Assembly: GCF_034479515.1 (NCBI RefSeq)
Contig: NZ_CP140152.1
Location: 5,518,001-5,582,000, forward strand
Length of the DNA stretch: 64,000 nucleotides
DNA from: Duganella zoogloeoides
GTDB lineage: Bacteria; Pseudomonadota; Gammaproteobacteria; Burkholderiales; Burkholderiaceae_D
Direction: 5' to 3'
The translations under genes were made by a program, and so were the position numbers. The notes under the pieces are model-generated. The model worked only from the letters and a program-made list of their open reading frames with translations, was not told the origin of the DNA and ran no database searches. Positions within the stretch are counted from its first letter, which is position 1; each line of letters starts with the position of its first letter. Below are positions 47,794 to 64,000 of this stretch, piece by piece.

Positions 47794-47999
47794 TGCATGA
47801 CTGGTGCCAGCCCAGCATACGATACATTGCGTTACAAAGCACGCAATATCGTCATGACAGCATGCCAAGTATTCATTCTGCAACATTGCCCGCCTGGGGG
47901 TTGAAAACCCTCATTGCTGCGGGGCCTGCCTCCGACTAGTATTTTTTGACCGACCGGTACCACCGGGCGTTCCCCACAAAAAAATCCTGGAAAGAGACC

Positions 48000-50441
48000 A
48001 TGACAAGAGCACCCCACTTCAAGCGCAGCCAGCTCGCCGGCATCATCGCCGGCGCCATCGCCCTGCTGGCCGCCGGCCAGTCCGGCGCGCAGTCGGCTGC
48101 CGAGGAACAGGCAGCCAAAGAACAAACTGTGGTCGTACTGGGCTCGCGCTCGGTGGCCAAGACGGCACTCGATACCTCGTCCCCCGTCGGCCTGATCAGC
48201 CTGAAAGACATGCAGACCGCCGGCCCGCTGGAGCTGGGCAAGCTGCTGCAGACGCTGGACCCGTCGTTCAACTTCTCCAGCACGTTTATCAGCGACGGCA
48301 CCGACAGCATCCGCCCCGCCACCCTGCGTTCGCTGGGACCGGACCAGGTACTGGTCCTGGTCAACGGCAAGCGCCGCCACCAGCAGGCGCTGGTCAACGT
48401 CCAGCAAAGCGTGGGACGCGGCTCGGCCGGTACCGACATCAACGCCATTCCGCTGGCAGCCATCCACCATATCGAGGTGCTGCGCGACGGCGCCGCCGCC
48501 CAGTACGGCTCGGACGCGATTGCCGGCGTGATCAACATCGTGCTCAAGTCGCAGGTCGAGGAGACGTCGGTGAGCGGCACCTACGGCACCACCTCGGAAG
48601 GCGACGGCGACCTGTACTCGGCCAGCGCCAACACCGGCGTGGCGCTGGGCCAGGACGGCGGCTACCTGAACCTGACGGTCGAAGCGCGCAAGCGCGGCGA
48701 AACCAACCGCGCCGGCGTCGACTCGCTGCGCGTGAACCCGCCGCGTGTCACGCAGCATATCGGCGACAGCAATACCCGCGACCTGTACTTCTGGTGGAAT
48801 GCCGCGCTGCCGATCGACAAGGACAGCGAGTTCTACGCCTTCGGCGGCGTCTCCAAGCGCAAGGGCGACTCGTTCGGCTTCTTCCGCTCGGCCGGCGACG
48901 ACCGCACCGTACCGGCCGTGTCGCCAAACGGCTTCCTGCCCGCCATCCACACCGACATCAAGGACGCCTCGTTCGCGTTCGGCTACCGGCGCGACCTGGC
49001 CAATGACTGGAAGGCCGACATCAGCATCAACCACGGCGCCAGCGAACTGGCGTTCCACGAATCGGACAGCATCAATACCAGCTACTGGTACGAACCGAAA
49101 CCGGGCGGCGGCATTTACGCCGAATCGCCGCGCGAGGCCGATACCGGCACCCTGAAATTCAACCAGACTACCTTCAACGCCGACATCAAGGGCCCGGTCA
49201 AACTGGGCGACGCCAGCCTGTTCCTGGCCACCGGTTTCGAATACCGCCGCGACAACTACCAGATAGTCGCCGGCGACCCGGTCTCGTACCAGTACGGCCG
49301 CACCAACAACCCGGCCATCCGCATCGTGGGCCAGAACGGCAACACCGCCGCCTCGGGCATCCAGGGCTTCCCCGGCTACACCCCCGCCACCGCGGTCGAT
49401 GACGGCCGCCACAACATCGCGCTGTTCCTCGACGTCGAGCACAAGCCGGTGGACAATGTCACGCTGGCCGGCGCCGTGCGCTATGAAAAATACTCGGACT
49501 TCGGCAACACCGTCACCGGCAAACTCAGCGCCCGCTGGGACCCGACCAAGACGGTGGGCGTACGCGGCAGCATCTCCTCCGGCTTCCGCGCACCGAGCGT
49601 GCAGCAGGAGTTCTACAGCTCCGTCTCGACCAACCTGAATAACGGCGTGCTGACCGAAACGCTGACCGCGCGCCAGGGCAGCGCCGTCACGCAAGCCTTC
49701 GGCATCGCTCCGCTCAAGGAAGAGACCTCGCGCAACGCCAGCGTGGGCCTGGTACTGCGGCCGGCATCGAACATGTCGCTGACGGTGGACGCGTACCAGA
49801 TCAAGATCCGTGACCGCATCGTGTTCTCGAGCGAGATCGCACCGGAAGCGAACGGCGGCCCGATCGCCAACGTGCTGCGCCCGCTGGGCGTGGGCCAGGC
49901 GCAGTTCTTCACCAACGCGGTCGATACCCGCACCCGGGGCCTCGACATCGTGGCCGAACACACCAGCCGCTTCGCCTCGTCGGCGCTGGTGCTGTCGGGC
50001 CAACTGGGCTTCAACAAGACCGAAGTGGCCAAGCGCCATTCGACGTCATCGGTATTGAGCGGCGAGACCCTGTTCGACCAGGCGCAGGTGACCCTGCTGG
50101 AACGCGGCCAGCCGCGCAAGCACCACGTGGTGGCGGCCGATTACACCAACGGTGCGTGGAACCTCAACGCCCGCGCCAACTACTACGGCGAAGTGCAGGC
50201 GCAAAGCTTCAGCCCCCTGCATACATGGGATGCGAAGTGGCTGGTCGATACGTCGGTGCGCTATGCCTTCAGCAAGCGCACCTTCCTGAGCCTGGGCGTC
50301 AACAACCTGTTCGACCAGTTGCCGTCCGAATGGACCAACGGCGGCGATTTCCCGAAACTGGGCTTTACGCGCTGCTGGGAAACCTGCCCGTTCGGCGTCA
50401 ATGGCCGTTCGATGTACGTGCGCGCCGATACGGCGTTTTAA
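48000..50441 (+). CDS. TonB-dependent outer membrane receptor 3
   Basis: An 813-residue receptor. The signal peptide MTRAPHFKRSQLAGIIAGAI ends near SGAQS. The TonB-box region is EQTVVVLGSRSV, the plug has LRSLGPDQVLVLVNGKRRHQ and IEVLRDGAAAQYGSDAIAGV, and the barrel ends ADTAF. The frame is open upstream, but GGAAAGAG precedes the ATG at 48000, where the signal peptide begins. The 256-base region before it holds only small dyads. The gene's stop codon overlaps the end of the structured repeat at 50440-50562. Ligand unknown. Confidence 0.93.
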   Translation: MTRAPHFKRSQLAGIIAGAIALLAAGQSGAQSAAEEQAAKEQTVVVLGSRSVAKTALDTSSPVGLISLKDMQTAGPLELGKLLQTLDPSFNFSSTFISDGTDSIRPATLRSLGPDQVLVLVNGKRRHQQALVNVQQSVGRGSAGTDINAIPLAAIHHIEVLRDGAAAQYGSDAIAGVINIVLKSQVEETSVSGTYGTTSEGDGDLYSASANTGVALGQDGGYLNLTVEARKRGETNRAGVDSLRVNPPRVTQHIGDSNTRDLYFWWNAALPIDKDSEFYAFGGVSKRKGDSFGFFRSAGDDRTVPAVSPNGFLPAIHTDIKDASFAFGYRRDLANDWKADISINHGASELAFHESDSINTSYWYEPKPGGGIYAESPREADTGTLKFNQTTFNADIKGPVKLGDASLFLATGFEYRRDNYQIVAGDPVSYQYGRTNNPAIRIVGQNGNTAASGIQGFPGYTPATAVDDGRHNIALFLDVEHKPVDNVTLAGAVRYEKYSDFGNTVTGKLSARWDPTKTVGVRGSISSGFRAPSVQQEFYSSVSTNLNNGVLTETLTARQGSAVTQAFGIAPLKEETSRNASVGLVLRPASNMSLTVDAYQIKIRDRIVFSSEIAPEANGGPIANVLRPLGVGQAQFFTNAVDTRTRGLDIVAEHTSRFASSALVLSGQLGFNKTEVAKRHSTSSVLSGETLFDQAQVTLLERGQPRKHHVVAADYTNGAWNLNARANYYGEVQAQSFSPLHTWDAKWLVDTSVRYAFSKRTFLSLGVNNLFDQLPSEWTNGGDFPKLGFTRCWETCPFGVNGRSMYVRADTAF

Positions 50442-50562
50442 GTGACCCCGGCAAACCTGCTGCGCGGCCCGGTGTCGCCCCTGCGTTGCTCAGCATACCT
50501 TCGTACGCTTGCGCTACTCGGGACGACACCGAACCGCTCACTACGGTTTTCCGAGGTCACTT
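50440..50562. repeat. Dispersed structured repeat, copy 2
   Basis: The element runs between terminal arms AAGTGACC (50440-50447) and GGTCACTT (50555-50562). It has an AAACC/GGTTT stem, an inner CGGTGTCG/CGACACCG stem, and an apical GCATAC/GTACGC hairpin with one mismatch. It matches copy 1 (2543-2651, opposite strand) at about 80%, with paired substitutions in the inner stem. It contains the last two bases of the TonB receptor 3 stop codon and the whole stop codon of the MocR gene. Confidence 0.8.
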
Positions 50563-52035
50563 TGCCGCACGCTGGCGGCAGTTGTACGCCGCCAGGTGCA
50601 CCACCACCGCCAGCCGCCTGACCAGGTCGTCCATCTCTGCCGCCGGCACCTGCGCGTAGCCGAGCATCAGTCCCTTCCAGCCCGAGCCGCCGTGCGTGTC
50701 ATGGCGGCTCAGGGCGTTTACCACCACGCCTTGCGCCAGCGCCTGCGCGCTGATCGCAGCGTCGTCGAGGTCCTGGTCGCGCAGGCGCAGCGACAAGTGC
50801 ATACCGGCCGATGCGCCGTGCACCGTCGCCACCGATCCCAGGTGTTTTTCCAGCGCCACCGCCAGCGCATCGCGCCGCTGCCGGTACAGCCGCCGCATGC
50901 GCCGCACGTGCAGGGCAAACTGGCCGCTACGCAGGAATTCGGCCAGCGCCAGTTGCTCGGCCGCGCGCCCGCTCGCATAAGACTGCGCGCGCATGGCGGC
51001 AAACGCCGGCGCCAGGTCCCGTGGCACCACCACGAAACCGATGCGCAGGCCCGGGAACATGGTTTTGCTGAAGGTGCCCAGGTACACCACCGGCGCCTCG
51101 GGCACCAGGCCCTGCATGGCCGACAGCGGCGCGCCGTCGTGGCGAAATTCGCTGTCGTAGTCGTCCTCGATGATCAGGGCGCCGGCCACCCGCGCCGCGT
51201 CGATCAGCGCCAGTCGCCGCCGCAAACTGAGTACGCTGCCCACCGGGTACTGGTGCGACGGCGTGGTATAGACCAGGCGCGGAGGACGCAGCAGCCAGTC
51301 GTCGGCCGTGGGCGCGATGCCGTCGTCATCGACATCGATGCCGGTGACCGCCAGCCCGGCCCCGCGCGCGGCCGCCAGCGCGCCGCCGTAGCCGGGGTTC
51401 TCGAGCCAGATGGTGTCGCCGGCATCGGCCAGCGCACGCAGGCACAGGTCCAGTCCACTCTGGGCGCCATCGGTGATGAACACCTGGCCGGCTTCGCACA
51501 CCACGCCGCGCGCGGCGCGCAGGTGATCGGCAATCGCCGTCCGCAGTTCCGCTTCGCCGCAGGGGTCGCCGTAGTTCAGCTGCGCAGGCGCGAGTGCACG
51601 CCAGGCGCGCTCGACCAGGCGCCGCCACAAGGCCATCGGAAACTGGTCGAGCGCGGGCACGCCGGGGACGAACGCGCCCATGCGCTGGGCGGTGCCGTAG
51701 AGCGGGCGCAGGTTGCGGGCGCGCTGGGACAGGCCGGTGGTGGTGATCGTGCTCGGAACAGCCGGGGGCAGCGGCACCAGGGGCCCCACCACGGTGCCAC
51801 GCCGGTCGGTGACAACAAAGCCTTCGCTGGCCAGTTGCTCGTACGCGTACAGCACGGTGTTGCGGGCCACGTGTAATTCCTCCGCCAGCACGCGCGACGC
51901 GGCCAGGCGGGTGCCGGCGGCCAGCGTGCCGTCGCGGATCGCCGCGCGCAGGCATTCGTGCAGCAGGCGCTGGCGCGGCCAGGCGCGGTGGCTGTGCTGG
52001 TGCGTATAGGTGGCGAGCAGCCGGGCAAGATCCAT
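50557..52035 (-). CDS. MocR-type PLP-dependent transcriptional regulator (GntR family)
   Basis: The 492-residue regulator joins an N-terminal GntR winged helix (RLLHECLRAAIRDGTLAAGT followed by RLAASRVLAEELHVARNTV, residues about 23-61) to a fold-type I aminotransferase-like domain. The PLP Lys is in GTFSKTMFPGLRIGF and the cofactor Asp/Tyr region is IIEDDYDSEFRHDG. MocR proteins such as PdxR bind PLP as effector rather than transaminating. It is divergent from a pyridoxamine-oxidase-like gene, the common target of such regulators, across 80 bases. Its stop codon lies within structured repeat copy 2. Confidence 0.93.
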   Translation of the reverse strand: MDLARLLATYTHQHSHRAWPRQRLLHECLRAAIRDGTLAAGTRLAASRVLAEELHVARNTVLYAYEQLASEGFVVTDRRGTVVGPLVPLPPAVPSTITTTGLSQRARNLRPLYGTAQRMGAFVPGVPALDQFPMALWRRLVERAWRALAPAQLNYGDPCGEAELRTAIADHLRAARGVVCEAGQVFITDGAQSGLDLCLRALADAGDTIWLENPGYGGALAAARGAGLAVTGIDVDDDGIAPTADDWLLRPPRLVYTTPSHQYPVGSVLSLRRRLALIDAARVAGALIIEDDYDSEFRHDGAPLSAMQGLVPEAPVVYLGTFSKTMFPGLRIGFVVVPRDLAPAFAAMRAQSYASGRAAEQLALAEFLRSGQFALHVRRMRRLYRQRRDALAVALEKHLGSVATVHGASAGMHLSLRLRDQDLDDAAISAQALAQGVVVNALSRHDTHGGSGWKGLMLGYAQVPAAEMDDLVRRLAVVVHLAAYNCRQRAAK

Positions 52036-52115
52036 CGTGGCTCCATGAAAACTGATAGTTGTGGACCTTATTTCAGGGCCAGCATCGTATTATATTGGTG
52101 TCTCACTTTTCTGAG

Positions 52116-52775
52116 ATGGAGAACATGAACGACCACGCCAACGCCCCCAGCGCGCGCACCCGCGTACGCCGCGTCGCCAGCAACGCGCACTACGACGCCG
52201 CCACCCTGCACGCGATCATCGACGCCGCCTACCTGTGCCACATCGCCTTTACCGACAGCCTGGGCGCGCACTGCATACCGACCGCCTGCTGGCGCAACGG
52301 CGAGTACCTGTACATCCACGGCTCCAACGGCAGCCGCATGCTCAAGCGCCTGCAGGAGAGCGACGCCTGCGTGACCATCACCCACCTGGACGGCCTAGTG
52401 ATGGCGCGTTCGGCGTTCAGCCATTCGATGAACTACCGGTCGGCGATGATCTACGGACGCTTCGAAGTGGTGGCCGACGAGGCAGCGCGGCGCCGGGCGA
52501 TGGAGGATTTCATGGAGCAGTTGCTGCCGGGCCGCCAGGCCGAAGTGCGGCCGGGCTCGGACAAGGAATACGCGGCAACGACCGTGATGCGCATCGCGCT
52601 CGACGAAGCGGCCTGCAAGGTGCGCAGCGGCGGCCCGAAGGACGACGAGGAAGACCTGTCCTGGCCGGCGTGGGCGGGCGTGCTGCCGTTTGCGCAAACC
52701 CGGCTGGCGCCGGTGGCCGATCCGGCCTGCGCCATCGAGGCGCCGGCGCATGTAGCGGGATGGCAGAGCGTTTGA
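52116..52775 (+). CDS. Pyridoxamine 5'-phosphate oxidase family (flavin-binding split-barrel) protein
   Basis: A 219-residue protein of the FMN-binding split-barrel group related to NimA and pyridoxamine-phosphate oxidase. Motifs are YLCHIAFTDSLGAHCIPTAC and YIHGSNGSRMLKRLQ. It is not the canonical PdxH, so the substrate is uncertain. Start codons at 52116 and 52125 are both plausible; GGAG lies only three bases before the second. A TATTATATT stretch at about 52089 in the divergent gap is a likely -10 region. The MocR gene opposite suggests PLP-responsive control. It converges on the next operon with four bases between stop codons. Confidence 0.85.
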   Translation: MENMNDHANAPSARTRVRRVASNAHYDAATLHAIIDAAYLCHIAFTDSLGAHCIPTACWRNGEYLYIHGSNGSRMLKRLQESDACVTITHLDGLVMARSAFSHSMNYRSAMIYGRFEVVADEAARRRAMEDFMEQLLPGRQAEVRPGSDKEYAATTVMRIALDEAACKVRSGGPKDDEEDLSWPAWAGVLPFAQTRLAPVADPACAIEAPAHVAGWQSV

Positions 52776-52779
52776 ATCG

Positions 52780-54612
52780 TTAACCGGCCACCGGGATGCC
52801 GGGGTCGGTATCGGCGTTGAGTCCCGGCGCTGGTCGTGCAGGGTTGCCATGCTGCTCGCGCCACCACAGCGCCAGCATGCACAGCGCGAACAAGATGGCA
52901 AACGGCATCGCTGGCAGCGGGCGGTCATTGACGGCGCCGCGAGTGGTGCCGTTAGTGGTGCCGTTAGTGCCATTGGCGGCATCACTGGTGCCGTTGTCGT
53001 TTGCCTCGCCGGTGGCAGCCCGGGTGCTGCCAGCGCGCGCGGCATAGGCGGCAGTTGCCTCGCGCCGCAGCGTGCGCTGCCACGCCGGCCAGTCGCCCGG
53101 TGCATACACGTACTGGCGTCCCGCCTCCAGGCCCTCGCTACGCAGCGCCAGCCAGCCCGCCTGTGGCGCCCACACGGCGGCGCACATGGCATCGGCCTTG
53201 CCGGCACGCGCCAGCAGGCGGGCATCGGCCAGGCCGTCGATATGCAGCGCCGCGCCTGGCTTGGCGCCTCGCGCGCAAATTTCGGTGCGCAGTCCGGGCA
53301 GCGGCATCGGGTCCGTCAACACCCACCCGGCCCCGGACTCGCCGGCCAGCGCCATCGCATCCATCGCCCCCTGCCACCACAGCGCCAGCGCCCTTGGCGC
53401 GCTGATCGCGTAGCGATGCCAGTCGGCCACGCCTATCCACACCACGCGCCCCTGGCCCAGCGCGCGCTGCCACGCCCATGGCCGTGCATGGCTGTCGCGC
53501 GCCAGCGTCGTCCACTCGCCGCCGGCCACATCATCGGGATTGAGTGCCGCCGGCGCCAGCGTCAACTCCGCACCGGCAAGCGCAAACCGGCGCTGGTCTT
53601 CCTGTTCCGTGGTCGGCGACTGTGGCCGCACCCGCAAGCCCAGGTCGCGCTGCCACAGGCCGGCATCGGCCGCGTTGCCGCCCAGGACCACCAGCGGCAC
53701 GCCCTGCCTCACTTGCGCCAGCAAGGCCGCGCGCGCAGCGGGCGCCAGCTGTTCGACATGAGCGGCATCGACCACCATCGCATTGGGAGTCGTAATGGCC
53801 GTGCGTGCGGTCTCGGTACGGGCAATGGCCTTGCCCAGCACGACCTGCCAGTCGAGCACCGCGCCGCCGTCGGTCAGCAGGCGATTGAGCGCGCTGGCGT
53901 CGAACGACGGTGCGTTGAAGCGGCCGACGATCTGCAGCGGCACCGGGGCCGTTACCTGGACCGGTACCGGTCCGCTGGCGACGACCTTGCCGGCGGCATC
54001 GAGCACGCGCGCATGCAATACCATCGCCTCGGCCACCGGTGGCAGCCATTGCACGGACCGTTGGAGCGATTTACCGGCGCTGCTGCTGGCGGCATTGGCT
54101 GCATTTTTCGCATTGGCTGCATCTGGCGCATGAGCGGCACTGGATGCCGAATCGGCCAGCAACTGGCCGTTCTCGGCCAGCAGTTGCAGCCGCCACGCAC
54201 CGTGCGCCTGCGGACGGTGCACGGTGAGCGTGAACACGCGGCCCAGCGCCATGGTGCGCGGGAAGTCGAGCGACAGCGCTTCGTCTTTGGTTGGCGTCCA
54301 GCGCAGCGGACGGGCCGGCAGATCCTGCCATTGCGCCGCGCGCAGGCCATCGCCGGCCAGGTCGATCGAGCCGGCATCTGCCATCGCCTGCAATTGGGCG
54401 TCGGCGATGGCGCCGCTGGCATCGGTGACGACCGTCAGCGCAGGCGCAGGCACGGGCAGGCGGGCATCGGCCAGCGCCACAGCCAGCGCCGCTCCCGCCA
54501 GCATGGCCAGCAACGCTTTGAACCACTGGCGCCGCCGGCCATACAGCGCGGCGCTGAAAATGCCGATGGCCAGGGCCACGCAAGCTGGCGCCAGATGGGT
54601 GACCGAGATCAT
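52780..54612 (-). CDS. Membrane-anchored protein of unknown function, last gene of the MoxR/TldD operon
   Basis: A 610-residue protein with two N-terminal membrane segments (about residues 5-22 and 33-49), a large periplasmic region and one C-terminal segment (MPFAILFALCMLALWW). The middle contains PLVVLGGNAADAGLWQRDLG and RVVWIGVADWHRYAI, resembling the amidotransferase-like fold found in BatA-type operons. A Thr/Asn/Gly-rich linker near residue 545 comes from a 12-base repeat. The ATG overlaps the preceding gene (ATGA). I do not recognise a named family. The position implies an envelope partner of the MoxR/DUF58 proteins. Confidence 0.75.
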   Translation of the reverse strand: MISVTHLAPACVALAIGIFSAALYGRRRQWFKALLAMLAGAALAVALADARLPVPAPALTVVTDASGAIADAQLQAMADAGSIDLAGDGLRAAQWQDLPARPLRWTPTKDEALSLDFPRTMALGRVFTLTVHRPQAHGAWRLQLLAENGQLLADSASSAAHAPDAANAKNAANAASSSAGKSLQRSVQWLPPVAEAMVLHARVLDAAGKVVASGPVPVQVTAPVPLQIVGRFNAPSFDASALNRLLTDGGAVLDWQVVLGKAIARTETARTAITTPNAMVVDAAHVEQLAPAARAALLAQVRQGVPLVVLGGNAADAGLWQRDLGLRVRPQSPTTEQEDQRRFALAGAELTLAPAALNPDDVAGGEWTTLARDSHARPWAWQRALGQGRVVWIGVADWHRYAISAPRALALWWQGAMDAMALAGESGAGWVLTDPMPLPGLRTEICARGAKPGAALHIDGLADARLLARAGKADAMCAAVWAPQAGWLALRSEGLEAGRQYVYAPGDWPAWQRTLRREATAAYAARAGSTRAATGEANDNGTSDAANGTNGTTNGTTRGAVNDRPLPAMPFAILFALCMLALWWREQHGNPARPAPGLNADTDPGIPVAG

Positions 54613-56873
54613 CGTTGCGGCTCCGGTTTCGGATGATGTTTGGACTGCGGCGGCTGCTGTTGTGCGGACGGCTGCGATTGCGATCGCGACTGCTGTTGCA
54701 ATTGGGGCTGCGGCTGCTGTTCCGGCCGCTCCTGGTGCCTGGCCTCGTTGCGCCAGGCGCTCAGGAATGGCGACTGCGTTGCCACGCGCGCCTGCACCAG
54801 CACGGGCGCATCGGCCAGCGTGCCGCGCAGCCAGGCGCGCAGCGGACCGCGACACGGTACGCAGCCGTCCTGCACATCCTGCACCGCACGTTGCGCCGCC
54901 AGTTTCTGTTCCGGGTCGGCGATGCGGGCGCCGATGGCGTCGCGTGCGGCCTTGCTCCACAACGCCGGCAGCGCGCCGTCCAGCGCCAGCGCCTGCACCA
55001 GGTCGCGTACTTCGGCCGGCACCGTGTCGTCCGGGGCTCCCTGCGCGCGCTTGTAACTCATGGCGCCCACCATGTCGCCGCTCAGGCGTTTTTCTTCCTT
55101 GAGCGCGGGCGGTACAAAGGCGGTGCGGTGCAGGTACACGCGCTCGGCCGCCTGCAGTTCCTTGATGGCACCCAACGCCTTGTACTCGGGACCCAGCGCT
55201 GCCTTCGGTGTCACCGCGCGCAGCGCCTTTTCCGCATCCCACATGGCCGCCAGCGCGCGTTTCAGGATCGCCTTGGTTTGCGGGTCGAAAATGGTGGCGT
55301 TGTCTTCCTGGTCGTGGACGTGGCCGAAGCGCTGCATGGCGCCAACCTCGGTGCCCATCGATTGATTGCTGTGCTGCTGGTCGCTGGGTGCACCGCCATG
55401 CTCCTCGTGACTGTCATGCTCCTTGTGGCTATCATCTTCCTTGTGGCCGGGCTGCTTGCTGTCATGCCCCTCGTGCCCATGCTCGTCGCCGAACAAGCTC
55501 GATTCCTCGCCCAGGAACTGGCCGTAGCGCAGCCGCAGCGCGGCCTGGTCGGCGGCGATTGCCTCGCTGCGCGCGCGCAGGTCGGCCAGCTTGGGCCGGG
55601 CCTGGAGGTCCGCCACCAGTTGTTCGGTGTCGATGATGACCTGGCGCTGGCTGCGCAGGCTCTCCGGTTTGACCATGGTGGGCAGCGCGGTCGACTCGAC
55701 GCTTTCGGCCTCCGGTCCCGGCAGGCGCAGCGTATAGGTGGGCGACTGCACGGTGTGCGGATTTTCGGGATCGTTGTCGGTGGCGCGTACGAAGAAATAC
55801 AGTTCGTCGCCCGGCTCCATGCCCAGCTCAGCCAAGGTCCACTGCTTGTTCCAGGTCCGCTGTTTGGGGTCAGCGGACTTGGGCAGCGGCACTTCGCGGT
55901 CGGTGAAGCGCACGTTCTCGCCGCTGCCGCGCGCCAGCGTCATATGCAGGCTGGCGCGCATGATGGCGTAGTCGTCGCGCACCACCACGGCGATGCGCGC
56001 GGCCGCCGCATCCCTGGCCAGCAGGTGGATCAATTCAACCGGCTCGGCGATGGTCACCTGCGGCGCCTGGTCCTGTGTGACGCGGATGTTGTAGCGCGCG
56101 CCGCCGCCAGCGCCGGCACTGCGGGCGCGCCAGAACAGCGAGTCTTCCACGCGGCGCATGGCGCAGGCTGCGCCCACGGCCAGGATGGCGCCGTCGCTCA
56201 GCTCCACCGCCGCCTTTTCGGCGGGCGAGTCGGCCGGCTGGCGCACGCACCACTGCACCTGCGCGTATTGCGGCACCTCGATATCGCGCGCGCCAGTCTC
56301 GAAGGCTGCCACGCCAGTGTAAGCAGGCGGCGTCACGCGCAGGTAGATTTCGCCGGCAACCACCGGCGTGTTGGCAGAAGGCGTTGCGGCGGGTTGCGCA
56401 ACGGCGCGTACGGCGCTGGCACCGTAACACCAGGCGGCGCCGGTGGCGATCATTGCCAGCACCACCGGTGCGAGCGAGGATGGTGCGGCCAGCGGCGCGC
56501 GGCGGCAGGCGATGGCGCGATAGTCGGCGGCGCTCAAGCTGGTAGCCAGGCGCGCCTGCAACCGCTGCTGCTGCAAGCGCGCCATGGGCGTGGCTGGCTC
56601 GCCGGCCAGCAGCGCGCTGCTGTCTTCCAGCGCCGGCACGGCGGCGTCCAGCCAGGCGGCCCATTGCGCGGCGATGCGCTGGCGCCAGCGCCAGGCGTCC
56701 AGCGCCAGCCCAAGGGCCCAGGCGGCCAGCGCCGCCAGCAGCCACGTGCGCATGGCCGGCAGCAGCACAGCGGCGGCCACCAGCGGGGTCAACGCGACCA
56801 ACCAGGCTGGCGCACGGCGGCGCAGCACGGCGGCCCACAGCCGCTGGCGCAACAGGTCAGGAGCGGCGGGCAT
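54609..56873 (-). CDS. Large DUF4175-like membrane protein with His-rich segment
   Basis: A 754-residue protein with two membrane segments near the N-terminus (about 24-55) and a third near 132-150, then a long periplasmic part. The stretch YLRVTPPAYTGVAA and the later RFTDREVPLPKSADPKQRTW resemble DUF4175-type proteins of MoxR operons. Residues about 464-500 are rich in His, Asp, Glu and Lys (for example HGHEGHDSKQPGHKEDD), suggesting metal binding. The C-terminus is Gln, Pro and Ser-rich. It overlaps the BatA-like gene by 17 bases and the next by four. Function unknown. Confidence 0.78.
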   Translation of the reverse strand: MPAAPDLLRQRLWAAVLRRRAPAWLVALTPLVAAAVLLPAMRTWLLAALAAWALGLALDAWRWRQRIAAQWAAWLDAAVPALEDSSALLAGEPATPMARLQQQRLQARLATSLSAADYRAIACRRAPLAAPSSLAPVVLAMIATGAAWCYGASAVRAVAQPAATPSANTPVVAGEIYLRVTPPAYTGVAAFETGARDIEVPQYAQVQWCVRQPADSPAEKAAVELSDGAILAVGAACAMRRVEDSLFWRARSAGAGGGARYNIRVTQDQAPQVTIAEPVELIHLLARDAAAARIAVVVRDDYAIMRASLHMTLARGSGENVRFTDREVPLPKSADPKQRTWNKQWTLAELGMEPGDELYFFVRATDNDPENPHTVQSPTYTLRLPGPEAESVESTALPTMVKPESLRSQRQVIIDTEQLVADLQARPKLADLRARSEAIAADQAALRLRYGQFLGEESSLFGDEHGHEGHDSKQPGHKEDDSHKEHDSHEEHGGAPSDQQHSNQSMGTEVGAMQRFGHVHDQEDNATIFDPQTKAILKRALAAMWDAEKALRAVTPKAALGPEYKALGAIKELQAAERVYLHRTAFVPPALKEEKRLSGDMVGAMSYKRAQGAPDDTVPAEVRDLVQALALDGALPALWSKAARDAIGARIADPEQKLAAQRAVQDVQDGCVPCRGPLRAWLRGTLADAPVLVQARVATQSPFLSAWRNEARHQERPEQQPQPQLQQQSRSQSQPSAQQQPPQSKHHPKPEPQR

Positions 56874-57906
56874 GGGTCAGACTCCGTTCCAGTAAAAACA
56901 GTGCCAGCAACAGCCAGGCGATCCAGTAGGCAGGCTTGGCATCGGCGGCAGCGGATGCCATGACAAACTTGTGCGACGGCGCCGGATAGACAGGCGCCGG
57001 TGCGACAGCGAGCAGGCGCCATGCTTCGTACAGGGCGCGCGCGGTCTCGGCATCTTGCGGCGGGAAGGCGGCCGAGGTCCACAGGCGGCCGCGCGCACTG
57101 TCGGCGTAACGCAGTGTGACGCCGTTGATGGTGATGGTGGTGGCTTTGCCCAGTTCCGGCCAGGCCTTGTCACTACCGGCGCCCAGCCACCAGTGCGGCG
57201 CGCGCCAGTCTGCCGGTGGTGCCAGCGTTGGTGTATCCCAGACGATCAATTCGGTCGTGGCGACGGGCGCGCCAGCAATGACGTAACGCTGCGCGCCATC
57301 GCCAGCCTGGCCGAACGCGGCAAATAGCGCGCGCCAGGCCTGTACACGCTCGGGCGTTGCCGATAGCGCGACCCGGTGACTCACTGGTGACGTGGCTGGT
57401 GCCGGAGGTACGTTTGGCGCAGCCTGCACCCGCAGCTCCACCGCATGACCGAACTGCGGCGCCCGCGCGGGCATGCCGATCTGCCCCTCGCGCGCCACGA
57501 TCAACAGCCGCGCACCGGCGCGCCAGTCAGGTTCGTTGTGGCGCAGCCAGGCCAGCGCGTCCGGCGGCAAATCGATACGCCGTGCGCCATCCATCCCTGC
57601 ATCGGCGATCTGGCGCGCAGCCCATGCATGGTCGGCGCCGGCATCGACCAGCACCGTGTCGCCGCGCCATGGTAATACGGTGACGGCCAGCCAGGCGATC
57701 AGCGCCACCAGCAACAGGCAGCGCACCAGCAACAGCAAGCGGTCGCGCCACTGCCATACGCGCAACTGCTGCGGCGCGGCAGCAGGCAGGAAGCGCGCGG
57801 TAGCCAGAAATTGGGCGTCGAGGCGCTGGCGCTTTTGCCGGTGCCACCAGATCGGTAGCAACAGCAGCGGCAGCGCCAGCCACCACCAGGGATAGCTACT
57901 CGTCAT
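56857..57906 (-). CDS. BatA-like membrane protein (aerotolerance N-terminal domain)
   Basis: A 349-residue protein starting MTSSYPWWWLALPLLLLPIW, with a second membrane segment at about residue 57 and a third at the C-terminus (YWIAWLLLALFLLERSLTHA). The two-helix N-terminus followed by a basic linker is the BatA N-terminal pattern. The central domain, however, lacks an evident VWA metal-binding motif (DXSXS). It overlaps DUF58 by one base (TGATG) and the next gene by 17. In known MoxR operons BatA-like proteins sit in the inner membrane with DUF58 proteins. Confidence 0.78.
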   Translation of the reverse strand: MTSSYPWWWLALPLLLLPIWWHRQKRQRLDAQFLATARFLPAAAPQQLRVWQWRDRLLLLVRCLLLVALIAWLAVTVLPWRGDTVLVDAGADHAWAARQIADAGMDGARRIDLPPDALAWLRHNEPDWRAGARLLIVAREGQIGMPARAPQFGHAVELRVQAAPNVPPAPATSPVSHRVALSATPERVQAWRALFAAFGQAGDGAQRYVIAGAPVATTELIVWDTPTLAPPADWRAPHWWLGAGSDKAWPELGKATTITINGVTLRYADSARGRLWTSAAFPPQDAETARALYEAWRLLAVAPAPVYPAPSHKFVMASAAADAKPAYWIAWLLLALFLLERSLTHARRS

Positions 57907-58844
57907 CAACGCGCTCCCGCTTTTTGCAGCCAGCGGCGCAGGACGTCCGCCAGCGGCTGCTCGACACACGCCTCGTGGTGGACAATATCGTGCTGGCGGC
58001 AGCTGGTGGCAAGCGCGCCGAAGTGGGCCGCGCTGCACTCGAGGTAAGCGGCGCGTTCGGCTTTGGTAAACCTGTGCAGGCCCGTCTCCTGTTCGGGATC
58101 GCGATAAGCGGCGCCGGAAGGGAAACTGGCTTCGACTTCGGCCCGCGTGCGCACCGTCAGCAGCCGCACATCGTGGTGCAGCTTGCGCAGGCGCAGCAGC
58201 GCCTCCGACAGCGGCGACGGCCCAGACTGGCCGTGCCAGTCCAGGCCATCGGTGGCGGCAAATACGAGGCTCGGCGCACGCGCAAAATGCAGGTTCGATT
58301 TCAATACCTGCGCGGTTGGCGGCAGGCCTTCCGCCCGCGCGCCAGCCAGCCGCGCCAGCACCCGCTGCAAGTGCCGTGGTCCGCGATCGGCCGGCGTGAA
58401 TGCCACCTTGCCGCCGCTGCAAATGGCCAGGCCAAAGGCGTCGCCCTGGCGCTGGGCGATGGCGGCCACGCAGGCTAGCGCCGTGCGGGCAAACCACAGC
58501 TTATCGACCCCTTTCAATTCGCGGCTAGGTTCCGCCATCGACGCCGTGGCGTCGAGCCACAGCCAGGTGGCGACGTGGCTGTCGCGCTCCGCCTCGCGCA
58601 CAAAATAACGGTCGGCGCGCGCCAGCAGTTTCCAGTCCACGCGCCGCCATTCGTCGCCGGGCGCATAGGCGCGGTACTCGGAAAACTCGACGCCCGCGCC
58701 GCGCTCGCGGCCCGCGTGAATGCCGTGGCCGAGACCGGCCAGCACGTGGCGAATCACCAGCTCCAGGTCGCGCGTGGCGGCCATGGCGGCATTGGTCGCA
58801 GCGGGAATGGCGGCGGGGGATGGAGGTGAAACGGGCATCGGCAA
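57906..58844 (-). CDS. DUF58 domain protein (VWA-like, MoxR partner)
   Basis: The 312-residue protein contains the family signature FSEYRAYAPGDEWRRVDWKL near residue 54 and a VWA-like half with LWLDATASMA, a DXTXS form of the metal site. DUF58 proteins accompany MoxR ATPases and are thought to be their substrates or adaptors. Two ATG codons (58844, 58838) are close and no strong ribosome site distinguishes them. It lies 37 bases after the MoxR gene. Confidence 0.92.
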   Translation of the reverse strand: MPMPVSPPSPAAIPAATNAAMAATRDLELVIRHVLAGLGHGIHAGRERGAGVEFSEYRAYAPGDEWRRVDWKLLARADRYFVREAERDSHVATWLWLDATASMAEPSRELKGVDKLWFARTALACVAAIAQRQGDAFGLAICSGGKVAFTPADRGPRHLQRVLARLAGARAEGLPPTAQVLKSNLHFARAPSLVFAATDGLDWHGQSGPSPLSEALLRLRKLHHDVRLLTVRTRAEVEASFPSGAAYRDPEQETGLHRFTKAERAAYLECSAAHFGALATSCRQHDIVHHEACVEQPLADVLRRWLQKAGAR

Positions 58845-58881
58845 TGGGCGCGTGTTGGACGAAATGGACGTGGAGCGTCGG

Positions 58882-59889
<1,008 letters not shown>

Positions 59890-60507
59890 CTAAGCTCCCA
59901 ACGCGTATTGAATGATATTGACCGCAAAGCGGGTGTTGTCGATCGCCAGAAAACGCTTGTTGCGAAAGTCGTAGTCCCACTCGCAGCCGTAGTCCTTGTT
60001 GCTGTATAAAATCCGCACCCGTCCGCCCACTTCCACCGCCTTCAGGTAGTCGTGCACCAGGTCGTCGCCCCATCCATTGAGTTCCACGCCGGTCGTCGGC
60101 GGCCCCTCGAACTTGAAGAAGCTCGAATAGACCGGGTGGTTGTTCGGGATCTTGTTCAAGGCGCGCTTGCCGAAAATGCTGGCGATCTCGGATTCGAACG
60201 ACTTGGCGAACAGGCCGTCGATATCGTGGTTGCAGTCATCCACGAACACGAAGCCGCCGCCCTTCACGTAGCGCTCGAGGTTCTTGCGCTCGGCCGGCGT
60301 GAACTGCACCAGCTTGTGGCCGGCGAAGTAGCAGAACGGCGCCTCGAGCATCTTCGGGTCGGACAGGGCCACGATACGCTCCACCGGATCGACGCGCAGG
60401 GTCGTGTACTCGACCAGCGAATTGAGCACGTTGCTGGGCATGCGCACATCGACATCCCAGTCGCCCGACTCGTAAGTCAGGCGGGTGAAGTAGAAATCCC
60501 AGGCCAA
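59890..60507 (-). CDS. DUF4159 domain protein
   Basis: A 205-residue stand-alone DUF4159 protein. It has FYFTRLTYESGDWDVDVRMP at the N-terminus, KYVKGGGFVFVDDCNHDIDG-type residues near 89-105 and GWGDDLVHDYLKAVEVGG later, typical for the family, whose fold resembles class I amidotransferases. In many alphaproteobacteria this domain is fused to a BatA-like membrane part; here it is separate. No signal peptide or membrane segment is seen. The start codon appears to be TTG at 60507, with AAAGGG nine bases upstream, and no in-frame ATG is available. Confidence 0.88.
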   Translation of the reverse strand: MAWDFYFTRLTYESGDWDVDVRMPSNVLNSLVEYTTLRVDPVERIVALSDPKMLEAPFCYFAGHKLVQFTPAERKNLERYVKGGGFVFVDDCNHDIDGLFAKSFESEIASIFGKRALNKIPNNHPVYSSFFKFEGPPTTGVELNGWGDDLVHDYLKAVEVGGRVRILYSNKDYGCEWDYDFRNKRFLAIDNTRFAVNIIQYALGA

Positions 60508-60530
60508 AGCCGTCTGCCCTTTCGTTAAAC

Positions 60531-61868
60531 CTACACCGCGTCCGACAGCGACGTGAAGTTAAAGTCGCGCACCTTCATCGGCGGGATCATCATCTGGTAA
60601 CGCACTTCGTCGCCGCCGATCACCACCGGCTTGCCCAGTTCCTCGATATTGTTCAGCATCGACACCGGGCTCTCGTTGAAGCGGAAGTTCTTGATCGGGT
60701 GCTTGATCTTGCCGTTCTCGATGTAGAAGGTGCCATCGCGCGTCAGGCCCGTGAGCAGCAGCGACTGCGGATCGACCATGCGGATATACCAGGTGCGCGT
60801 GACCAGCACGCCCTTCTTGGTGGACGCGATCAGCTCTTCGGTGGACTTGCCGCCGCCCGACATGATCATGTTGCCGTGGCGGCCGATGGCGCGCTTGCCC
60901 TGCTTCTCGGCCCAGTAAGGGGTGTAGTCGAGCGAGGCGATCTTGCCGCCCTTGATCACGTCGGTGCGCTCGCGCGCCAGCATCGAGGCGTTGTCCCAGC
61001 CCAGCACCGGCACGTCCGGGTTCCACGGATCGGCCCACAGGTTCACCTGCTCGTCGAACAGCTTTTCGCCGAGGCGGTTACCGCCACCTTTTTTCGACAG
61101 GAAGCTGCGGCCCTCGTCGGCCTGGCGCGCATCGAACGCGCCGAACATGCGGCCGATGATTTCCGACGTGGCGGCCGGCTCCAGGATCACCGTGTAGCGA
61201 CCCGGCTCGATGGCCTTGGCATTGACCGAAGTAAGCGCTTTTTCGATGGCAATCTCGGACGCCTCGCGCGCGTTGAACCTGGCGGCATCGTTGGCCGAGC
61301 GCGTGACCCAGCCCGAGCCCAGGCCGTCCTCGGTGCGGGTCGTGACCGTGAAGCCGAGGTTGGTCAGGGTCTGGTAGCCGAACACGCCGTTGGAGTTGGC
61401 CACGGTTTCGAAGCCGGTGGTATCGCTGAAAAAGCCGGCGGCGACCAGGCCTTTTTTACGCGCCAGCTCGATGCTCGCTGCCGCCACCTCCGCGCGGTAC
61501 TCGGGATCGATGGCGGCGGTGGCCGCGCTGTACGTCGACGATGCTTTATAAACCTGCCCTTTCACGGCCGGCAGGAACTCCGGATTTTCCGGTGCCAGGC
61601 GCGCCACTTCCTCGGCGCGGCGCACGGCCTTTTCCAGCGACTTGTCATCGAACTCGTTCACCGACGCCGTGCCCTGGCGCTTGCCAAAGGCCACGCTCAC
61701 GGTGAGCTGGGTGTTTTGCACCAGGCCGGCGGTGGACACGCTGTTGCGCGCGTAGCGCACGTTGCCGCGCTGGCTGCCCGAAATCTGCACCCGGCATTCG
61801 TCGGCTTTCGACAGCGCCATCACCTTGTCGCAAATCTGTTTTGCCTGGTCTTGCGTGAGCATCTTCAT
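60531..61868 (-). CDS. TldD/PmbA family protein (TldE-like)
   Basis: A 445-residue TldE/PmbA-type protein. This subunit usually lacks the zinc motif and pairs with TldD in a heterodimeric protease that clears unfolded peptides or matures modified peptides. No HEXXXH is present, while the C-terminal signature TRTWYIRMVDPQSLLLTGLT and IKHPIKNFRFNESPVSMLNN is. No signal peptide is visible. It is three bases downstream of the Tat-signal TldD gene and 23 before DUF4159. A close paralogue lies just upstream at 63530-64000. Confidence 0.93.
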   Translation of the reverse strand: MKMLTQDQAKQICDKVMALSKADECRVQISGSQRGNVRYARNSVSTAGLVQNTQLTVSVAFGKRQGTASVNEFDDKSLEKAVRRAEEVARLAPENPEFLPAVKGQVYKASSTYSAATAAIDPEYRAEVAAASIELARKKGLVAAGFFSDTTGFETVANSNGVFGYQTLTNLGFTVTTRTEDGLGSGWVTRSANDAARFNAREASEIAIEKALTSVNAKAIEPGRYTVILEPAATSEIIGRMFGAFDARQADEGRSFLSKKGGGNRLGEKLFDEQVNLWADPWNPDVPVLGWDNASMLARERTDVIKGGKIASLDYTPYWAEKQGKRAIGRHGNMIMSGGGKSTEELIASTKKGVLVTRTWYIRMVDPQSLLLTGLTRDGTFYIENGKIKHPIKNFRFNESPVSMLNNIEELGKPVVIGGDEVRYQMMIPPMKVRDFNFTSLSDAV

Positions 61869-61871
61869 CGT

Positions 61872-63509
61872 TTATCCTATTTTGCGTGCGGTGTTGATCA
61901 CATTGATGCCGTTGAAGCGCGTGGTGGGCGAACCGTGCGACACGGCGCTGACCTGGCTCGGCTGGCCCTTGCCGTCGAAGAAGGAGCCGCCCATGCGCCA
62001 GTCGCGCGCATCGCACAGCGCCGTGCAGGCGTTCCAGAACTCCTGGGTGTTCGATTGGTAGGCCACGTCTTCGAGCTGGTTGCCGATCTTGCCGTTCCTG
62101 ATCTCGAAATACAGCTGGCCGCCGAACTGGAAGTTGTAGCGCTGCTGGTCGATCGAGAACGAGCCGCGGCCGAGGATGTAAATCCCCTTCTTGACATCCT
62201 TGACCATCTCGTCGGGCGTCAGCTGCTTCTTGCCCGCCGCCAGGGAGACGTTGGGCATGCGCTGGAACTGCACGCTGCTCCAGCTGTCCGCGTACGAGCA
62301 GCCTTGCGATTCCTTCTCGCCGATGACGTGAGCCTGGTCGCGCGTGGCCTGGTAGTTGACCAGGATGCCGTCCTTGATGATGTCCCAGCGCTTGGCCGGC
62401 ACTCCCTCGTCGTCGTAACCGACGCAACCGAGCGACGCCGCGGTGGTGCGATCCGCGATGAAGTTGACGATATCGGAGCCGTACTTGAATTTCTTGCTTT
62501 GCCACTTGTCGAGCGTGGCAAAGCTGGTGCCGGCGTAGTTGGCTTCGTAGCCGAGCACGCGGTCCAGTTCCGTCGCGTGGCCCACCGACTCGTGGATGGT
62601 CAGGAACAGGTGTTCGGGCGAGAGCACCAGGTCGTACTTGCCCGGCTCCACCGACTTGGCGGTGAGCTTTTCGCGCGCCTGGCGCCCGGCCGCACGGGCG
62701 TCCTCGATCAGGTCATACGAACCGTTGTACAGCGTGGTCACGCCGCCGGCCGCCTTGAGCTTGTGCTCGGGACGGGCGTCGAAGAATTCATAACCCATCG
62801 CCACCGGCGACGACAATCCATCGCGGGTACGGAAGCGGTTACTGGCCTTGTCCACGGCAGTGGCGGTGAACGGCGACCACAAACGGTGCAAGTCCTGGTC
62901 GATGTAGGAGCCGTCGGTGGACGCAAAATACTTTTGCTGGTTGACCTGGAACAGGTTGGCCTGCATGAAGTTGGCGCCCGCTTCCAGGCCGGCCTTGTTG
63001 GCGGCGATCAGCAGTTCTGCCTTTTCCTTGATGGGCACCGCGCGCCAGTCCTTCTTGAACGGCGTGGCCCATGCCACGTCGCCCACGCCCTTGACGGGCG
63101 CCAGCACCACGGGTTCGAGCTGCAGCTTCGCATTGGCGCGGGCAATCGCCACGGCCTGGCGCGCGGCGTCGGCCACCGAGTCGAGCGTCATCACGTTGGT
63201 CGAGCAAAAGCCGTAGGCGCCGCCGGCGATCACGCGCACACCCACGCCGGACGACTCGGTGTTGACGATGTCTTCCACGTTGAGGTCGCGCGTGGTGATG
63301 AACTGGTTCAGGTAGCGGCCGATGCGCACGTCGCAGTAGCTGGCGCCGGCCTTGGTGGCCGCGTTGAGGGCGGCGTCGGCCAGCGACTTCTTGAACTGCA
63401 CGGCCATTGGGCTCAGCAACTCGTCGGCGGCGATGGCGTTACCGAAAACGGGGATCAGCAAGCTGCCGCCGGCGGCGGCGCTGACCTTTAAAAATGAACG
63501 TCGTTCCAC
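61872..63509 (-). CDS. TldD family metalloprotease with Tat-type signal
   Basis: The 545-residue protein has the zinc motif HESVGH (306-311) followed by ATELDR, as in TldD. Unlike cytoplasmic TldD it begins MERRSFLKVSAAAGGSLLIP, a twin-arginine motif (RRSFLK) plus a hydrophobic stretch and an Ala-rich cleavage region near residue 28. It is therefore predicted to be exported folded. It sits between two TldE-like genes (20 and 3 base gaps), so it probably forms heterodimers with one or both. Confidence 0.92.
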   Translation of the reverse strand: MERRSFLKVSAAAGGSLLIPVFGNAIAADELLSPMAVQFKKSLADAALNAATKAGASYCDVRIGRYLNQFITTRDLNVEDIVNTESSGVGVRVIAGGAYGFCSTNVMTLDSVADAARQAVAIARANAKLQLEPVVLAPVKGVGDVAWATPFKKDWRAVPIKEKAELLIAANKAGLEAGANFMQANLFQVNQQKYFASTDGSYIDQDLHRLWSPFTATAVDKASNRFRTRDGLSSPVAMGYEFFDARPEHKLKAAGGVTTLYNGSYDLIEDARAAGRQAREKLTAKSVEPGKYDLVLSPEHLFLTIHESVGHATELDRVLGYEANYAGTSFATLDKWQSKKFKYGSDIVNFIADRTTAASLGCVGYDDEGVPAKRWDIIKDGILVNYQATRDQAHVIGEKESQGCSYADSWSSVQFQRMPNVSLAAGKKQLTPDEMVKDVKKGIYILGRGSFSIDQQRYNFQFGGQLYFEIRNGKIGNQLEDVAYQSNTQEFWNACTALCDARDWRMGGSFFDGKGQPSQVSAVSHGSPTTRFNGINVINTARKIG

Positions 63510-63529
63510 TGATACTCCAAAAGTCTGTT

Positions 63530-64000
63530 TTAAACCGCGTCCGACAGCGACGTGAAATTGAAATCGCGCACGCGCATGGCCGGCACCAGCAACTGGTACG
63601 GCGATTCGTCGCCCGACAGGATTTCCGGCCGGCCCAGTTCATCGATATTGTTCAACATCGATACCGGGCTTTCGTTGAAGCGGAAGTTCTTGATCGGGTG
63701 CTTGATCTTGCCGTTCTCGATATAGAACGTGCCGTCGCGCGTCAAGCCCGTGAGCAGCACCGACTGCGGATCGACCATGCGGATATACCAGGTGCGCGTG
63801 ACCAGCACCCCTTTTTTAGTATTCGCAATCAGCTCCTCGGTGGATTTGTTGGTGCCGGCCATGATGATGTTGCCGGGCGCCCCCACTGCGCGCTGGCCCT
63901 GCTTCTTGGCCCAGTACATCGAGTAATTGAGATCCTGGACGCGGCCATTCTTGATCAGGTCCTGGCGTTCGCGCGCCAGCATCGAGCCGCCATCCCACGG
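63530..64000 (-). CDS. Second TldE-like protein (N-terminus beyond window)
   Basis: Only the last 156 codons are visible, entering at 64000 in frame as PWDGGS and ending at TAA in 63530-63532. The C-terminus has TRTWYIRMVDPQSVLLTGLT and IKHPIKNFRFNESPVSMLNN, nearly identical to the TldE-like protein at 60531-61868, ending in the same SLSDAV. Stretches of nearly 50 identical bases are shared. It is the first visible gene of the operon; its promoter lies outside the window. Confidence 0.93.
   Translation of the reverse strand, partial: PWDGGSMLARERQDLIKNGRVQDLNYSMYWAKKQGQRAVGAPGNIIMAGTNKSTEELIANTKKGVLVTRTWYIRMVDPQSVLLTGLTRDGTFYIENGKIKHPIKNFRFNESPVSMLNNIDELGRPEILSGDESPYQLLVPAMRVRDFNFTSLSDAV

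Follow-up and report, generated by a model that had tools for sequence, protein, structure and literature searches.

Introduction

Escherichia coli TldD/TldE (TldD/E) forms a hollow heterodimer whose inner surface cleaves unfolded peptides; its TldD ligands are His262, His267 and Cys454, with Lys456 tied to Glu270 and Asp272, and Asp may stand in for Cys in some TldDs (PMC5810440). An operon in Stenotrophomonas maltophilia (NIPOLPBK_01784-01792), which encodes two TldDs and a MoxR-like ATPase, is described as not yet characterised, and some of its genes showed lower expression in biofilm in every isolate (PMC7688217). Here, we describe a ten-gene cluster from Duganella zoogloeoides in which two TldD/TldE pairs adjoin genes for a DUF4159 protein, a MoxR ATPase, a DUF58 protein and three putative membrane proteins. 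The genome is a single contig of 6.32 Mb, of which a 64,000 nucleotide (nt) stretch (G000:C1:5518001-5582000, the window) was analysed; positions given below are those of the window. We read the cluster as a conserved module of the cell envelope, where a TldD/TldE metalloprotease outside the cytoplasm would work with a MoxR-type membrane-remodelling machine, and put the probability of this at roughly 0.55.

All parts are members of known families. MoxR-DUF58-Bat systems occur widely and few of their clients are known, and TldD/E likewise has no settled general role. A TldD/E subfamily that is exported and accompanies a MoxR module in Pseudomonadota and Bacteroidota would link both problems, and points to the periplasm. 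Mutation of the related core operon RL3499-RL3502 in Rhizobium is reported to cause envelope and morphology defects. We take RL3499-RL3502 of Rhizobium leguminosarum (cmdABCD) to be the studied member of the alphaproteobacterial type. In the open-licence literature, no mention of a TldD/MoxR operon was found beyond PMC7688217 and no paper was found that names DUF4159; among the matches listed, TldD appeared in PMC5810440 only, where twin-arginine did not appear.

Gene arrangement and conservation of the cluster

The ten genes are co-directional on the minus strand, in the order tldD1-tldE1-tldD2-tldE2-DUF4159-moxR-DUF58-batA-like-DUF4175-like (P754)-P610, and the cluster extends beyond the end of the window. 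The initial annotation of positions 52780-64000 proposed a co-directional operon of at least nine genes with one TldD and two TldE-like proteins. All of the genes that it named are indeed on the minus strand and tightly spaced, with the count now at ten, while the single TldD was an effect of the window edge: the adjacent DNA (L007) holds tldD1 and most of tldE1, so that there are two complete pairs. Reading from tldD1, the gaps are 17, 20, 3, 23, 0, 37, -1, -17 and -4 nt, figures that depend on the GTG, TTG and ATG start codons that we chose. The ten genes are presumably carried on a single transcript.

Samples of 145 genomes from the family, 369 from the class and 299 from the phylum were searched with a 16-row TldD profile (A1; threshold E 1e-120 in the family sample), with scores taken for only the few top TldD candidates of each genome. 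In the family sample, DUF4159 (PF13709) was found in 26/145 genomes, and A1 detected its TldD in the same 26 and in 0/119 others (Fisher 2.8e-29, with kinship ignored). Two genomes of the same genus have neither this TldD type nor DUF4159. Judged by stop positions, 25 of the 26, the D. zoogloeoides genome included, have all ten genes in this order, and the 26th (L069) is without tldE1. DUF4159 was found in 72/299 genomes of the phylum sample, as a frame of <300 amino acids (aa) in nine and a longer one (≥578 aa) in 63; a strong TldD (>1000 bits) was found in exactly the nine genomes with the short form. One genome with a long frame (G330) has a weaker TldD, scoring 468 bits with A1 (G330:C6:4062708-4064201), ~3.1 Mb from its DUF4159. 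In the class sample this TldD was found in 4/369 genomes, and DUF4159 in 4/4 of these. Six further genomes that passed the DUF4159 cut-off have only divergent DUF4159, and an eleventh genome fell under it. The segment TldD-TldE-DUF4159-MoxR-DUF58-P754 (DUF4175-like) lies on one strand in 7/7 other Pseudomonadota loci with short DUF4159 that were fetched.

When A1 was used to scan named genomes, at least 581 confirmed stretches were returned, of which the best-scoring 78 loci were kept. These, at 63-91% identity, come from Oxalobacteraceae, Gammaproteobacteria (Microbulbifer, Alteromonas, Paraglaciecola, Colwellia, Lysobacteraceae, Nevskiaceae and others) and Bacteroidota (Dyadobacter, Spirosoma and kin, Flavobacteriaceae, Pontibacter and Rufibacter). 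DUF4159 and MoxR lie beside TldD in 67 of the 78, in every case on a single strand and with stop positions in an unchanged order, and 64 of these loci also include DUF58 and the DUF4175-like gene. In six of the remaining 11, the contig ends after DUF4159 (L152, L155) or before it (L109, L134, L151, L166). Recurrence in family, Gammaproteobacteria and Bacteroidota loci rules out a linkage local to one genome. As distant bacteria carry this gene set too, we conclude that the cluster is probably one working unit. The expectation in the initial annotation that TldD/E would co-occur with the MoxR set in other genomes, and TldD with DUF4159 in a synteny survey, is thus strongly borne out, with an exact match in the family and an order kept over two phyla.

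The rule does not hold for DUF4159 in general, as 6/10 class genomes over the cut-off are without TldD. Of 13 DUF4159 places in those six genomes, 12 score 19-59 bits with a model of the operon type and one gave no score, compared with 409-425 bits for seven operon-type copies. MoxR and DUF58 were present in the stretch fetched for 3/13 of these places, and TldD in 0/13. Because the divergent DUF4159 places come without TldD, the linkage rule is confined, on these model scores, to operon-type DUF4159. The loci L202, L203 and L178-L190 represent other DUF4159 subfamilies without TldD beside them, at one to three copies per genome.

The TldD and TldE proteins

The tldD1 gene (64885-66522 in extended window coordinates, L007:6886-8523) lies upstream of tldE1 (63530-64000 in the window and to 64867 beyond it), which encodes a PmbA/TldE-like protein of 445 aa. 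The second pair is tldD2 (61872-63509, GTG start assumed), for a TldD-type metalloprotease of 545 aa with a Tat-type (twin-arginine translocation) leader, and tldE2 (60531-61868), for a leaderless PmbA/TldE-like protein of 445 aa assigned by Pfam. PF19289, PF01523 and PF19290 all match TldD2 and TldE1 over cut-off. TldD1 and TldD2 are 82.8% identical, and TldE1 and TldE2 70.8%. TldD2 matches the E. coli TldD structure 5nj5 with E 2.4e-17, and TldE2 matches 1vpb with E 7.4e-18 and E. coli PmbA (5nj5_B) with E 4.7e-10. TldD2 scores 81.1 bits against an NCBIfam equivalog cut-off of 513, and TldE2 52.2 against 438; by these scores both belong to a distinct subfamily. Elsewhere, the same genome encodes another TldD-like protein, with the motif HEAIGH, and also a PmbA-like protein.

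The HExxxH motif, HESVGH in TldD2, is invariant across 16 aligned TldDs and is present in neither TldE1 nor TldE2. The Cys that provides the third metal ligand in E. coli (Cys454) is missing from the operon TldD, which has an invariant F-F-D-G-K-G-Q segment in this region. In an alignment with the canonical TldD of the genome, F511 stands opposite the Cys and the invariant Asp512 adjoins it; a shift of one residue (D-G-K on C-G-K) would place Asp512 and Lys514 on the E. coli Cys and Lys. E314 and D316 align with the acidic pair that follows HExxxH. Since HExxxH is intact, an Asp stands at or beside the Cys place and Asp is known to replace Cys in some TldDs, the predicted peptidase activity of TldD is likely.

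Among the best-scoring loci, the closest TldDs are those of Duganella sp. OV510, at 90-91% identity, which places the genome in the Oxalobacteraceae. In a tree, both Oxalobacteraceae TldDs fall in one clade (24 rows, support 100/100), and the copies in Lysobacteraceae, Microbulbifer and Spirosomataceae fall in other clades. This placement suggests repeated duplication of TldD. The 67 loci with DUF4159 and MoxR contain one to three TldDs and one to three TldEs. Ten loci have two TldDs and one TldE (L102, L128, L129, L138, L140 and five others), and one TldE may therefore serve two TldDs.

Export signals and probable cellular location

When TldD leaders were aligned by column, a twin Arg was present in 194/195 rows, the exception reading KRSEF; an earlier pattern-based count gave 133/135. 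The leaders mostly consist of M or L, one residue and then RRxF, with a hydrophobic stretch and an AxA-like end in many rows. TldD2 scored 19.3 bits with the TIGR01409 Tat model (cut-off 16.7), and TatC was found in 18/18 genomes checked. A hydrophobic N-terminus was found in 0/174 TldE rows. The leader rows of TldD/TldE and DUF4159 are partly non-independent, as L063/L105 and L074/L106, whose contigs are equally long, seem to be the same genomes in two surveys. A Sec leader is expected to mix R and K. As RR is near-invariant here, the TldD leader points to Tat.

What is new is a TldD with a near-invariant twin-arginine leader whose TldE partner is leaderless; neither the export signals nor the second TldD had been recorded in the initial annotation. 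Judged by these N-termini, the subfamily is probably exported folded, with TldE carried along, and Tat substrates are known that carry a leaderless partner out with them (PMC4273604, PMC10924467).

DUF4159 has a hydrophobic leader in 22/25 rows from Proteobacteria outside the Oxalobacteraceae, and in the other three an RR leader can be made out by eye. Alphaproteobacterial fusions have a third hydrophobic stretch and then an Arg-rich turn ahead of DUF4159, and a fourth transmembrane segment passed the threshold in 1/5, so that the side of the membrane on which DUF4159 lies is only suggested. Hydrophobic stretches that would suit membrane anchoring are present in the BatA-like protein, P754 and P610. 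By the same hydropathy measure, DUF58, DUF4159 and TldE have no stretch over threshold, and MoxR has one marginal stretch that is part of the AAA domain. The envelope location proposed initially is thus supported by predicted signals of three kinds: the TldD leaders, the DUF4159 leaders of Proteobacteria outside the Oxalobacteraceae and the hydrophobic stretches of three partners.

Partner proteins

The DUF4159 protein (59890-60507, 205 aa, TTG start assumed; PF13709, E 8.4e-50), which has no leader in this clade, matches the solved relative 4i66 with E 5.2e-10. Its Pfam match, like those of MoxR and DUF58 below, exceeds the cut-off of the family. MoxR (58882-59889, 335 aa; PF07726, E 1.9e-64) is an AAA+ ATPase with an AAA_3 domain, Walker A GVPGLGKT and Walker B region LLADEINR, and matches 2r44 with E 2e-75. 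The gene next to moxR encodes its von Willebrand factor A (vWA)-type partner, the DUF58 protein (57906-58844, 312 aa; PF01882, E 8.4e-27). It carries DATAS, a string like the metal ion-dependent adhesion site, and a sequence search of PDB with this protein returned nothing useful.

The name BatA-like, given initially to the 349 aa membrane protein encoded at 56857-57906, stands by TIGR02226 (24.1 bits against 23.05) and falls just short by Pfam (PF07584, 24.1 against 25.9), making it a weak assignment for the window copy. This protein is homologous to the N-terminus of the alphaproteobacterial BatA-DUF4159 fusion. The two "large envelope proteins" of the initial annotation do look membrane-bound and can be specified further. 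P754 (54609-56873) is a DUF4175-like protein with two predicted immunoglobulin (Ig)-like domains: 7/33 aligned homologues match PF13779 (best E 8.6e-16), although the window copy itself does not, and its structure model (md6b890beeb60, pLDDT 76.5) has a beta region at 172-388. Comparison of P754 with the alphaproteobacterial fusion by hhalign gave 0.1%. P610 (52780-54612) has three hydrophobic stretches and predicted Ig-like and glutamine-amidotransferase (GATase)-like domains, and is homologous to the last protein of the alphaproteobacterial operon. Neither window copy had a Pfam or NCBIfam match at E 0.01, and fold searches returned common Ig-like and GATase-like folds, with nothing pointing to function.

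Proposed role and alternative explanations

The gene arrangement, the conserved linkage, the intact HExxxH, the Tat-type leaders and the homology to the alphaproteobacterial MoxR operon type were all computed directly, and from them we infer how an envelope module might work, from export and topology through to substrate and physiological role. MoxR hexamers with DUF58 as a vWA-like adaptor would sit on the cytoplasmic face and, using ATP, act on a membrane trio (BatA-like, DUF4175-like and P610) whose large domains would face the periplasm. Folded TldD would pass through Tat with leaderless TldE as a hitchhiker. In Proteobacteria outside the Oxalobacteraceae, DUF4159 would leave the cytoplasm on its own leader; in Oxalobacteraceae and Bacteroidota it would either travel as a hitchhiker too or remain inside. 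TldD/E would then act in the periplasm as a closed chamber, cleaving unfolded peptides or loops exposed by the membrane complex, and the module as a whole would serve envelope integrity or quality control. A single machine that matures or clears an envelope peptide, as proposed initially, might be accommodated here.

A bolder form, which we hold as speculative and unlikely to be right, is an undescribed transmembrane protease machine, in which ATP energy from MoxR-DUF58 would pass via the BatA-like protein, the DUF4175-like protein and P610 to Tat-exported TldD/E and DUF4159 in the periplasm. If true, the ATP-free periplasm would gain an energised peptide-cutting device, one that includes export of folded hitchhikers (TldE with TldD and, in some clades, DUF4159).

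Several observations weigh against the envelope module. TldD/E is present without DUF4159 or MoxR beside it in five of the best-scoring loci (L137, L147, L154, L156, L167). Alphaproteobacterial loci with long DUF4159 have MoxR and DUF58 with no TldD in ~20 kb (8/8 fetched, of 63 genomes), and TldD/E is therefore not needed for every MoxR-DUF58-DUF4159 system. As E. coli TldD/E is active without an ATPase of its own (PMC5810440), ATP-driven feeding is not required. The Pfam Tat model scores below cut-off on TldD2, and TldD1 has no match in the Tat libraries of Pfam and NCBIfam. A DUF4159 leader was found in 0/63 anchored Oxalobacteraceae rows (a 64th, which begins at the domain, was not anchorable). 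The Bacteroidota DUF4159 also appears leaderless as we read it, 2/12 rows being flagged, both in upstream sequence without a Met. We know of no biochemical link between TldD/E and MoxR.

The five deviating loci were considered as exceptions to the linkage rule, and this was rejected as a MoxR set is present elsewhere in all five genomes. Four have the TldD-TldE-DUF4159-MoxR-DUF58 set, and in three of them a DUF4175-like gene was seen as well. In the L167 genome, a MoxR-DUF58-DUF4175-like set is on another contig, where the DUF4159 beside it is in the opposite orientation and there is no TldD. The loci L137, L147, L154 and L156 are additional TldD/TldE pairs of Pontibacter and Rufibacter, located apart from the MoxR set.

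An exported envelope protease and an envelope chaperone system might simply be needed under the same conditions, sharing a regulon with no contact and no shared machine. In S. maltophilia biofilm, part of the genes of such an operon change in concert (PMC7688217), which fits this, as do the distance of the extra Pontibacter and Rufibacter pairs from the MoxR set, one Sphingobacteriaceae genome with TldD/E and MoxR parts on different contigs, and the alphaproteobacterial core without TldD nearby in all eight loci fetched. However, a shared regulon accounts less readily for the conservation of gene order, beyond mere presence, over two phyla, or for a TldD type that is found only in genomes with operon-type or short DUF4159, except for the weaker G330 protein. 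We regard it as possible, though on balance unlikely.

TldD/E could also be cytoplasmic, the RR segment being no Tat signal, and degrade or mature cytoplasmic peptides presented by MoxR-DUF58. The modified microcin precursor and CcdA41 are cytoplasmic. Both are named substrates of E. coli TldD/E (PMC5810440), which suits such a placement, as does the lack of a leader on TldE and, in this clade, on DUF4159. Set against this are the twin Arg kept over two phyla, the hydrophobic stretch, the AxA-like end in many rows and the presence of TatC in every genome checked, and we find a cytoplasmic site quite improbable.

Finally, TldD-type proteases finish several ribosomally synthesised and post-translationally modified peptides (RiPPs) (PMC5810440, PMC12257519), and the cluster could be dedicated to such maturation, with TldD/E removing a leader and the MoxR set handling export or producer protection. 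A conserved precursor-like gene of ≥80 codons was not found beside the operon, shorter peptides being outside the search, and neither was a modification gene. In a survey of open reading frame (ORF) families (ORFs of ≥80 codons, BatA-like and P610-like genes excluded), the widest other family occurred in 7/44 non-Oxalobacteraceae loci, mostly Microbulbifer (14 families), and a substrate gene next to the operon was rejected. RiPP maturation is accordingly very hard to credit.

Flanking genes

The frames on either side of the cluster were identified by eye. An 831 aa frame at 47946-50441 (+) is TonB-dependent receptor-like. A 492 aa frame at 50557-52035 (-) resembles a GntR/MocR-type regulator with an aminotransferase-like part, and a pyridoxamine-oxidase-like frame at 52059-52775 (+) is divergent from it, a typical MocR arrangement. 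Upstream of tldD1 and divergent from it is a methyltransferase-like frame with a leader-like start (L007:8818-9636, +), and CheB-, CheR-, CheW- and CheA-like frames lie past it (L007:9670-14337, -).

Comparison with known systems

Like E. coli TldD/TldE (PmbA), the operon proteins have three PmbA/TldD domains, HExxxH in TldD only and an acidic pair (E314/D316). They differ in their Tat-type leader, in having an Asp at or beside the place of the Cys third ligand, and in falling below the equivalog cut-offs. The S. maltophilia operon NIPOLPBK_01784-01792, likened by description only, is probably the same module.

The MoxR ATPase with a vWA-type partner resembles NorQ-NorD and RavA-ViaA, which remodel membrane-linked targets (PMC13036017, PMC3893208). 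These belong to different subfamilies with different clients and include no protease. The Bat (Bacteroides aerotolerance) operon shares MoxR, DUF58 and a BatA-type N-terminal domain (PMC5700661). Here, the BatA-type N-terminus, at the border of the cut-offs, is the only Bat-type feature. None of the ten proteins had a TPR or BatD family match at E 0.01, so the gene set is not that of a Bat operon, and TldD/E and DUF4159 are added.

The alphaproteobacterial MoxR-DUF58-BatA/DUF4159-GATase operon likewise has adjoining MoxR and DUF58 genes and a DUF4159; the N-terminus of its fusion corresponds to the BatA-like protein, and its last protein to P610. The cmdABCD-type layout, in which MoxR-DUF58 is followed by a BatA/DUF4159 fusion and a GATase-like membrane protein, is not that of the D. 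zoogloeoides cluster. Instead of forming part of a fusion, DUF4159 has a gene of its own that precedes moxR, and loci of this type additionally hold a DUF4175-like gene and between one and three TldD/TldE sets.

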